Shown here: positions 2,323 through 5,562 of the stretch, in pieces | Layout: the number at the start of each line of letters is the position of its first letter | Numbering within the stretch: the first letter of the stretch is position 1 | Assembly (NCBI GenBank): GCA_013297765.1 | Contig: JAAFID010000020.1 | Coordinates: 1 to 32,308, forward strand | Length of the DNA: 32,308 nt | Origin: Cytophagales bacterium | GTDB taxonomy: Bacteria > Bacteroidota > Bacteroidia > Cytophagales > Cytophagaceae | Direction: 5' to 3' | Made by a program: the position numbers and the translations under genes | The notes under the pieces: model-generated | Told to the model about the DNA's origin: nothing | Seen by the model: only the letters and a program-made list of their open reading frames with translations | The model's database searches: none

Positions 2323-5300
2323 CTAAAACGCCCTATTCACACCCACCACATAACGAAATTGAAAGTAATCCTCAGTAGCAGGTGGGGTATTTAAAAACAA
2401 AGGCATATCAAAACGAAGTACTAGTGGCTTGATATCTAATGGTGAAAAACGAATGGTGAGCGATGTGCCTAGCCCAGCATTCATACGCAATGGAGAAAGG
2501 TAATTCTTTTCAAGATGGGTGTACGCCAATGCCCCAATATCTCCAAATACATAAGTATCTACTTTCAAATTTTTAGTAATTCCTTTTGCTGGAATTTTGA
2601 TGTACCGGTCAAAGTCTATTTCTATATTATAACTAGCGCCGCCTCTTCCTACATAATTATTTAGGATGTCGCTTGCCTGCTGCTGTAAAGCCAAATAACC
2701 TGAATAGCCACGTAAATTGAGCCCACCCCCTGCATGAAAATGATTGGTTGCAATGCCATAGCCCAACCACTGGTCAGGTACAAAACCTTTCGCTCTGGTG
2801 TATTTATTTTCTATTAGTGCCTCTGTATTTGCACCTGCTAGATACAAGGCTGACTCTTGTGGAATATCATTTCCAAAAATCCATTGCCCGTAAACCCTAG
2901 ATTTTATTTCCAGTTTTTTCCAATTAATTCTATTTAGCGAATGCAACTGTAGCCACGAATAATTGTAGTCTGAAAGTACCGAAGGCATTCTAGCTGCAAG
3001 TGTAAACTCGCCAGTTCCTGCTTTGTACACGTAGTATTTGGTATAGCCTAGGTTCATACTACCATTGACATAACTAGCTTGGTCTAGCCTAGCTGTAGGC
3101 CTTCCCCAGGCATTGGGGTATAATAAATAGTCTTGAATATTGTTGCCATTGATTAAATATTTTACCTCGGCAAACAGTTTCGAATATCTAGGGTTGCGGT
3201 TGTCTTGGGTGCGAAATATCTTTTCAAATCCTATGGCAGACTTAGCTACACCAGCATTGTAAAAACCATGTTGATACAACATAGAGTTGTGCCATAGTTT
3301 ATTGGTGGCATTTTTATGGTATAGTTCCACCGCAAAAGGTTGGTTGTTGTTGCTTTTGTCTCCGTAAATATTATTCTGCAATAGCCTAGAATTGTACCAT
3401 GAAGAAATTGAATAGCTATTTCTATTCATATAGCTACCCTCGGCATGTAGCCCTAGTTGCAAGCCATCGTAGCTATTGTACCACACATCTGGCCGCCAAA
3501 AGTTTTTTGATTTTGTCCAGCTAGGCATGGCAGGTATGCGGTGGTCAAATTCGTAAGTACATATACCATCGTCGCCTACTTTATTGTTTCTCAAATCAGC
3601 ATCGGCAAGGTATTTTTCAGGGTCTATTTCTACTGATTTTATCTTATTTGGTATTTGTACTTGTGCGGTATAGTTGGGCTGTAGCAAGTCCCAGCCATAC
3701 CATTTTGGCAATATGGTTGCGGTGGTTTTTTTTGTAAACCATGTATTGGGAATGTGAAAATTGTAGGTATTATTTTTCTCGTCAGTTACCGTAAAATCAA
3801 TCGGCATCTGCATTCTGCCTTTTCTGGAAAATGAAATTTCGTACGTATTTTCTTCCTTAGTTTTCTTTACTTTGGTTATTGCATAGTCAATGTTTTTGGT
3901 AGTTTCCAGCCATTGGTCAAAAAACCAGTTGAGATCTACTTGGGTATATTCTATTACAGCTTGTCTAAAATCTTCGGGGTAGGGGTGCATGAATTTCCAT
4001 TTTTCGACATAGTATTTCATGGCTTTTAGAAATAGCTCGTCGCCTAGCACGTAGCGTAGATTGTAGAGCATCACACCAGTTTTATAATACACTAATCCGT
4101 AATTCCCTCCATGACGAATGGCACCATTAAATGCTGATGAATGTGTATTTAGTGGCTCATCAAAACCTTCTGTTACATGTGTTAAATATGGGTAGTAGAG
4201 GTTTTCATAGCGGGTATCGGAACTGTCAAGGTGTTTTTCTATGTATTTATTTTTATGAAGCCTTGCACGCTTTTCGCCCACTATTCTATCCATCGACCAC
4301 ACCGTAAGAAACTGTGTAAAGCCCTCGTCAAGCGAGGCACGGTAGGTTTCGTTGCTGCCTAGCATACCGTAAAACCACATGTGCCCTACCTCATGTGCCA
4401 ATAGACTTTGGTGCTGTGGATAGGTCCCTCCATCGAGCGTAAGCATGGGGTATTCCATGCCGTCTTTGGCATCGGCGACTATTATTTTGGGCCATGCATA
4501 CATCCCAAAATCCATGGAATAAACTTTAATCACATTCATGGTAAACCATGCCGACTGCTGCCAGCCAGCGGCGTGGTTTTCTTGTGCGAGGGCTATTACT
4601 TTGATACCATTCCATTCTAGTTCGCCAATACGATAGAGGGGGTCGGCAGTAAAGGCAAAGTTGTGTACATTTTTTGCGTGAAAATACCAAGTTTTGGTTT
4701 TTCCTTTTTCTCTAGGCACTATCACACTTGGCGTGTCGCTAGGTTTTACTTTTGTAAAATTAGCTAAGTCATATTTTTTTCTTAGCGAATCGGGCATTAC
4801 TTGTTCTTTGTTTTGCAACACACCTGTAGCCTCTACCACATATTCTTGTGGGAAGTTTAGCTTTACATCAAACGAACCAAAATTGCCATAATATTCCTTA
4901 TCCAAATCTTGATCGGTATTCCAGCCAAATTTTTTGTCGTACACCGCAATGGCAGGGTACCACTGCACGCCATCGTAGTGTTTGGTATTGAAACTGTTAA
5001 ATTTTTTCATGCGCCTACGCATAGAACCTGTGTCGAAATAGGTTTTAAACTTCATGGTGACCACCAAAGAATCGCCTGGGAAAAGCATTTTTTGCAAGGC
5101 AATTTTCATAATGGTATTGTCCAGCTCAGTGATTACGGGCTGTCCATTGATACGAATGCTATCGCAAACTGTGCCTAGCCCTTGCTGTTCATACTTTCCA
5201 TATTTTATAGGGATTCGGTTGTTTTGGTTCAAATTTTCATAATGCGACTTCGGTTGAAACGCATTTTGATGCAAATGAAAATAAAGTTCCTTGAGTGGAA

Positions 5301-5562
5301 ATGGCGAATTGTTCCAATATACCAATTGATAGTTGCCACTAATGATGTCGGTTTCGTCATCAACCACCGCATCTATGGTATAGGCTACATCTTGCTGCCA
5401 GTAGCCTGGGTCACGCATTTTGTTTTGCCAATATTGTGGATTTTCTTTGCTACGAAAAGGAACGTCGGGCAGTAGGTATTTGCTGGTTTGAGCGAGTGAA
5501 AAGTTGGTGAATTTTAATAAAACCCAAAGGATAAAAAGTATTTGCTTTTTCATTTTATTCAT
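2323..5562 (-). CDS. M1-family zinc metallopeptidase fused to an Omp85-like outer-membrane beta-barrel
   Basis: 1079 residues from the ATG at 5562; a GTG at 5589 would only add 9 residues before the signal peptide. A signal peptide (residues ~1-25, ending SLAQ) is followed by an M1 aminopeptidase: GMEYP (~368-372) stands where GAMEN usually is, HEVGH (390-394) with the third zinc ligand Glu413 exactly 18 residues on, and YYKTG (~492) provides the catalytic tyrosine. After the M1 C-terminal beta-sandwich (~560-660), residues ~691-1079 are rich in alternating aromatic/polar strands, contain NLRGYSG (~949-955, like the RGF/RGY of Omp85 loop 6) and end in phenylalanine, as outer-membrane barrels do. 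I infer an outer-membrane protein with a peptidase head. The gene starts 26 nt after the LptF/G-type gene and is probably in the tgt operon. The peptidase call is firm; the barrel call is good but untested. Confidence 0.9.
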   Translation of the reverse strand: MNKMKKQILFILWVLLKFTNFSLAQTSKYLLPDVPFRSKENPQYWQNKMRDPGYWQQDVAYTIDAVVDDETDIISGNYQLVYWNNSPFPLKELYFHLHQNAFQPKSHYENLNQNNRIPIKYGKYEQQGLGTVCDSIRINGQPVITELDNTIMKIALQKMLFPGDSLVVTMKFKTYFDTGSMRRRMKKFNSFNTKHYDGVQWYPAIAVYDKKFGWNTDQDLDKEYYGNFGSFDVKLNFPQEYVVEATGVLQNKEQVMPDSLRKKYDLANFTKVKPSDTPSVIVPREKGKTKTWYFHAKNVHNFAFTADPLYRIGELEWNGIKVIALAQENHAAGWQQSAWFTMNVIKVYSMDFGMYAWPKIIVADAKDGMEYPMLTLDGGTYPQHQSLLAHEVGHMWFYGMLGSNETYRASLDEGFTQFLTVWSMDRIVGEKRARLHKNKYIEKHLDSSDTRYENLYYPYLTHVTEGFDEPLNTHSSAFNGAIRHGGNYGLVYYKTGVMLYNLRYVLGDELFLKAMKYYVEKWKFMHPYPEDFRQAVIEYTQVDLNWFFDQWLETTKNIDYAITKVKKTKEENTYEISFSRKGRMQMPIDFTVTDEKNNTYNFHIPNTWFTKKTTATILPKWYGWDLLQPNYTAQVQIPNKIKSVEIDPEKYLADADLRNNKVGDDGICTYEFDHRIPAMPSWTKSKNFWRPDVWYNSYDGLQLGLHAEGSYMNRNSYSISSWYNSRLLQNNIYGDKSNNNQPFAVELYHKNATNKLWHNSMLYQHGFYNAGVAKSAIGFEKIFRTQDNRNPRYSKLFAEVKYLINGNNIQDYLLYPNAWGRPTARLDQASYVNGSMNLGYTKYYVYKAGTGEFTLAARMPSVLSDYNYSWLQLHSLNRINWKKLEIKSRVYGQWIFGNDIPQESALYLAGANTEALIENKYTRAKGFVPDQWLGYGIATNHFHAGGGLNLRGYSGYLALQQQASDILNNYVGRGGASYNIEIDFDRYIKIPAKGITKNLKVDTYVFGDIGALAYTHLEKNYLSPLRMNAGLGTSLTIRFSPLDIKPLVLRFDMPLFLNTPPATEDYFQFRYVVGVNRAF

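Follow-up and report, generated by a model that had tools for sequence, protein, structure and literature searches.

A POTRA-less fusion of an M1 peptidase unit to a predicted Omp85-type β-barrel is widespread in Bacteroidota

One intact gene in the 32,308-nucleotide stretch of Cytophagales DNA analyzed here (the window) encodes a signal peptide, an M1 zinc peptidase and a predicted Omp85-type β-barrel in a single polypeptide; the product is probably a periplasm-side zinc aminopeptidase anchored in the outer membrane by a closed barrel. The gene occupies positions 2323..5562 on the minus strand, as do all of its features described below, with the ATG at 5562 and the stop codon at 2323-2325, and its reading frame and translation, a homologue alignment and an AlphaFold2 model delimit a protein of 1079 residues. 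Four M1 proteins are present in the same genome, of which only this one is approximately 1,080 residues long. As the full-length architecture is conserved in at least 95 proteins, chance and a gene-calling artefact can both be dismissed as explanations of the pairing of the M1 unit and the barrel. Conservation was read from an alignment of 95 full-length homologues, which also served as input for the AlphaFold2 full-length model; this model returned a mean pLDDT of 91.3 and a pTM of 0.87; the whole-protein pTM implies a defined predicted arrangement of the M1 unit relative to the barrel.

The N-terminal 24 residues (5491..5562) are a predicted Sec signal peptide ending ...FTNFSLA|QTS, which would leave Gln25 as the first residue of the mature protein, in keeping with the Q-rule of Bacteroidota. 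In 87 of the 95 homologues, a motif filter detected an A-x-A-like site followed by Gln; the same filter detected a lipobox in none of the 95. The Q-rule describes exported proteins with Gln directly after the signal peptide cleavage site; the resulting N-terminal pyroglutamate has been argued to shield these proteins from aminopeptidases, and strong periplasmic aminopeptidase activity has been proposed as the cause of the rule (PMC10653852). By our own reasoning, an M1 enzyme at the outer membrane would contribute to such aminopeptidase pressure, and the M1-barrel protein is a candidate for the envelope aminopeptidase activity thought to underlie the pyroglutamate rule in this phylum.

The M1 peptidase unit, delimited by Pfam, Foldseek and barrel-less relatives, spans residues ~53-660 (3583..5406) and comprises an N-terminal β domain, a catalytic domain and a short β-sandwich. 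The Pfam Peptidase_M1 profile (PF01433) matched residues 383-551 with an E value of 8e-13, above its cut-off; the closest folds to the full model in Foldseek were IRAP, ERAP1 and E. coli PepN, while a sequence search of the PDB returned weak M1 matches only. The full M1 active site read in an earlier note on this DNA is present in its entirety: the GMEYP motif at residues 368-372 (4447..4461), the HEVGH zinc-binding motif at residues 390-394 (4381..4395) and the third zinc ligand Glu413 (4324..4326). His390, Glu391, His394 and Glu413 are invariant among the 95 homologues, and the 18 residues between His394 and Glu413 reproduce the HExxH-(18)-E zinc site of family M1. Tyr492 (4087..4089), also invariant, is presumably the catalytic tyrosine, a role assigned by analogy with PepN/APN. 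GMEYP is the counterpart of the GxMEN exopeptidase motif, the Glu of which binds the substrate N-terminus; Gly368 and Glu370 are invariant and Met369 and Tyr371 at least 90% conserved, but the asparagine of GxMEN is replaced by tyrosine. The invariance of the catalytic residues makes an active zinc peptidase likely, whereas its specificity, and even exopeptidase action, we only infer, because GMEYP differs from the classical GAMEN motif. The protein thus shares with the M1 aminopeptidases (PepN/APN, ERAP1, IRAP, LTA4H) the zinc site, a GxMEN-like motif, and the catalytic domain followed by a β-sandwich; unlike them, it lacks the helical domain IV, in the place of which it carries the membrane barrel. 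Many relatives of 615-670 residues stop at the same point as the M1 unit, demonstrating that the unit is complete by itself, and the ~100 residues preceding the barrel are therefore the β-sandwich of the M1 enzyme itself and not a POTRA domain.

Between the two parts lies a linker of 24 residues (661-684; 3511..3582), identified from the model and from its low conservation (1.5 bits). It is too short to hold a POTRA domain, and a Pfam search of the protein returned no POTRA profile match at E values up to 1; the absence of a POTRA domain between the parts, as the earlier note had remarked, is thereby borne out. The remainder of the protein, residues 685-1079 (2326..3510), terminates in Phe and is assigned to a 16-stranded Omp85-type β-barrel by AlphaFold2, Foldseek and profile-profile comparison. 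The earlier note had suspected such a barrel and had suggested checking it by structure prediction and by profile searches against Omp85 families. Structure prediction agreed with the suspicion: the models place 16 strands between residues 685 and 1075, the barrel modelled alone reached a pLDDT of 90.4 and a pTM of 0.87, and in Foldseek BamA or TamA accounted for all 50 PDB matches listed, with a best E value of 1.2e-10 and TM-scores of ~0.4-0.54. Profile searches gave a divided answer. Pfam and NCBIfam offered nothing usable for the C-terminal part, and the Pfam Omp85 profile (PF01103) matched 0 of the 73 barrels scanned; a single M1-barrel relative, present in two extracts, matched NCBIfam NF047779 (Omp85_fam) at E values of 6e-6 and 1e-5, below the curated cut-off. 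Profile-profile comparison, on the other hand, matched the barrel to a mixed Omp85 alignment with a probability of 89% (89-94% over such comparisons), as compared to 1.2% for TonB-dependent receptors and at most 0.2% for FhuA, LptD and FadL. Omp85 profiles built from BamA or TamL alone proved too narrow; the mixed profile and the structure search exposed the relationship, which is faint at the sequence level. By its modelled structure, the C-terminal part is an Omp85-type barrel of the BamA/TamA fold.

The M1-Omp85 fusion is widespread in Bacteroidota. Full-length homologues were found in all searched genomes of the family to which the window belongs, where two are fragments at the ends of contigs, and in several further families of the same order; many Cytophagales, Flavobacteriales, Chitinophagales and related metagenome-assembled genomes carry them as well; in one metagenome assembly the gene is present in two frames (L057:5920-9150), by assembly error or because the gene is broken. 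A sample of the phylum added more distant M1-barrel proteins of 990-1180 residues, the barrels of which match that of the window by profile comparison (A2 vs B, E 1e-34). Still other genomes encode a free-standing M1 unit or a free-standing barrel, the latter a protein of 400-470 residues. When the M1 tree is rooted on classical M1 proteins, fused proteins populate all deep branches and barrel-less proteins fall into three separate nested groups; the tree implies four state changes, with four the least that could be forced and a bootstrap range of 4-5. Given that the barrels are homologous, this pattern is most simply read as one old fusion followed by at least three losses of the barrel. A barrel-less member nested among fused proteins and bearing a short lysine-rich tail (L031:1405-3456) is a clear instance of recent loss.

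Two further groups were observed. Divergent long M1 proteins of ~950-1040 residues from other Bacteroidota families (L210-L215, L217, L218 and L229) carry ~400-450 barrel-like C-terminal residues followed by a short extra segment; profile comparison with the barrel gave probabilities of 92-97% for the region of the junction and of 77% for the final strands, which indicates that these tails are likely barrels, possibly of the Omp85 type. Stand-alone barrel relatives of 400-470 residues (L174-L196, e.g. L174:1486-2760 and L180:1486-2694) occur in one or two copies per genome, and none of the five scanned matched Pfam; in two of the inspected genomes the gene lies just downstream of a NUDIX-like gene. 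In one family, the two parts are encoded by separate genes that are not linked. Such split partners were considered, and rejected, as proof of a link between the M1 unit and the barrel; the barrel persists where no close stand-alone M1 protein appears among the matches listed, so that the two do not strictly occur together. Relatives that have lost the barrel, or carry the barrel alone, furnish a natural test of the purpose of the barrel.

The RGY motif which the earlier note had placed about 125 residues before the C-terminal Phe lies at residues 951-953, 126 residues before Phe1079, in a loop of 58 residues that connects strands 11 and 12. By the strand order of the model, this loop (residues 900-957, with LRGY at 950-953; 2692..2865) holds the loop 6 position of Omp85 proteins. 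Its mean conservation is 2.75 bits, as compared to ~1.2 bits in the other long external loops, and Gly946, Gly947 and Arg951 are invariant among the 95 homologues. That loop 6 is the best conserved of the long external segments would be expected of a segment folded into the lumen, and we take it to fill the lumen as a plug, keeping the barrel closed. The same conservation, unusual for so long a loop, could also be read as the mark of a moving gate: were loop 6 to move, the barrel would admit oligopeptides, which would be trimmed upon arrival by the M1 domain sitting at the inner mouth. We regard such coupled uptake as unlikely. The well-defined predicted arrangement of the two parts fits it, and peptides are what M1 enzymes digest; but the known Omp85 barrels are, to our knowledge, not nutrient channels, no conserved transporter partner sits beside the gene in the loci examined, and the barrel has disappeared from relatives on at least three occasions, with the enzyme retained. 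A gated port of this kind, in which loop 6 opens and oligopeptides reach the attached M1 active site in the periplasm, is improbable in our estimation; if real, it would be the first Omp85 protein to serve the uptake and digestion of nutrients instead of the assembly of proteins.

The side of the outer membrane on which the M1 domain resides was addressed through the predicted topology. In Omp85 barrels the first strand begins, and the last strand ends, at the periplasmic side. With the N-terminus set in the periplasm, the predicted external loops measure 3, 18, 2, 26, 6, 58, 9 and 14 residues and the predicted periplasmic turns 3, 7, 8, 2, 2, 15 and 9 residues, the usual long-outside, short-inside pattern. 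Because the odd-numbered turns are long (136 residues in sum) and the even-numbered turns short (46 residues), the N-terminus and both ends of the barrel are predicted to be periplasmic. By other routes, large domains do reach the outside of the cell in some outer-membrane proteins of Bacteroidota. Four lines of evidence nevertheless make a periplasm-facing M1 domain most likely, rather than one exposed outside: i) the predicted topology, ii) the plug-like loop 6, iii) the barrel-less relatives, which stop directly behind the M1 unit, bear Q-rule signal peptides and resemble ordinary exports to the periplasm, so that the M1 unit is normally an exported soluble enzyme, and iv) the precedent of PlpD, the enzyme domain of which resides exclusively in the periplasm, surface secretion having been refuted for this protein (PMC11116518).

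These observations weigh against an autotransporter-like layout of the former type Vd, in which the barrel would deliver the peptidase to the cell surface, there to act as an ectopeptidase or to be released, and which we consider improbable. The succession of an enzyme and an Omp85 barrel does resemble the early view of PlpD (PMC4104836), and it was on this older view that the earlier idea of secretion was based; the passage of the peptidase through the outer membrane contemplated in the earlier note is disfavored by the predicted periplasmic N-terminus and by the plug-like conservation of loop 6, consistent with a filled lumen, and PlpD itself turned out to be periplasmic (PMC11116518). In the model, moreover, the 24-residue linker leads straight into strand 1 without a helical segment through the lumen. 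The type IX secretion C-terminal signal domain is likewise absent from the protein, the C-terminus of which is that of the barrel, ending in Phe.

In the periplasmic anchored-enzyme model that we favor, the protein would be exported by Sec and lose its signal peptide ahead of Gln25, and the 16-stranded barrel at its C-terminus would be embedded in the outer membrane. The peptidase domain would stay in the periplasm, packed onto the barrel at its inner mouth, with the barrel standing where classical M1 enzymes have the helical domain IV as a cover over their active site. In this position the enzyme would trim peptides or protein N-termini having a free amino group. The barrel, closed by loop 6, would mainly be an anchor, and perhaps also a regulator or a docking site. 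A role in outer-membrane biogenesis or quality control, with the barrel inserting or translocating clients and the M1 domain trimming or degrading faulty ones, appears doubtful to us. All characterized Omp85 proteins except PlpD do assemble or translocate proteins (PMC11116518), and the presence of dedicated BamA and TamL proteins in the same genome may be counted on that side; but the POTRA domain, the usual platform for clients and partners, is missing, M1 enzymes are peptide exopeptidases and not typical quality-control proteases, and the barrel is dispensable in several lineages. That gene calling or assembly has joined two unrelated genes, a reading to which the separate M1 and barrel genes of related families could lend some color, was rejected as practically negligible in view of single full-length frames of 1040-1130 residues in ~95 independent assemblies, including complete chromosomes.

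Among known systems, PlpD and the patatin-like Omp85 proteins (formerly type Vd) likewise join an N-terminal hydrolytic enzyme to a C-terminal 16-stranded Omp85 barrel. They possess a patatin lipase and one POTRA domain where the present protein has an M1 zinc peptidase and no POTRA, and no patatin domain was detected in it by Pfam; the departure from the type Vd layout which the earlier note anticipated is thus apparent. PlpD-type proteins are scattered, whereas the M1-barrel proteins belong to Bacteroidota and are apparently old and vertically inherited. The sole Pfam domain found in the M1-barrel protein is PF01433, and PF00149, which we take to denote the calcineurin-like metallophosphoesterases (Pfam), is absent ahead of the barrel. 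It is PF00149 that is carried by the 'Metallo' subfamily, one of ten Omp85 subfamilies defined by Heinz and Lithgow in 2014, who called it a metalloprotease; none of the ten has an M1 domain (PMC4104836). POTRA domains, usual in Omp85 proteins, are absent from the noNterm and Metallo subfamilies. The Metallo proteins thus resemble the M1-barrel proteins in having a hydrolase-like domain before a POTRA-less Omp85 barrel, but differ in the identity of that domain (PF00149 vs PF01433). The noNterm proteins share the POTRA-less Omp85 barrel, and the stand-alone relatives of the M1-linked barrel (~400-470 residues) in other Bacteroidota families are alike in this respect; the noNterm proteins carry no enzyme, and profile similarity to those of the same genome is weak. 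That genome encodes three short proteins matching Omp85 profiles (L118, L119 and L120; 368-479 residues) besides BamA and two TamL-like proteins.

The pairing of M1 with an Omp85 barrel is absent from Pfam, NCBIfam and the ten published Omp85 subfamilies, and the M1-Omp85 proteins are a POTRA-less subfamily of enzyme-Omp85 fusions absent from the classifications searched. No description of them was found in open-access papers; subscription journals and preprints lay outside this search, and an earlier mention is possible. They add to the Omp85 superfamily a phylum-wide enzyme-barrel subfamily that current profile libraries miss, and suggest that an Omp85 barrel can serve as an enzyme platform without POTRA domains.

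In the window, the M1-barrel gene comes after tgt and lptF/G, which share its strand, at a distance of 26 bases, and is followed 4 bases downstream by the gene for a secreted protein of 543 residues. The lptF/G neighbor is kept in the same genus (L006), but among the loci examined neither tgt, lptFG nor the downstream reading frame lies beside the gene outside the genus, and the recurrent neighbors in other lineages look like housekeeping genes. As the context is not conserved in other loci, it says little about function, and the neighborhood was rejected as a functional clue. The 543-residue protein had no Pfam match, and among the related loci examined no homologue of it adjoined the M1-barrel gene; it is encoded at positions 687-2318 on the minus strand and is itself an exported protein, with a signal peptide ending ...SIAQ.
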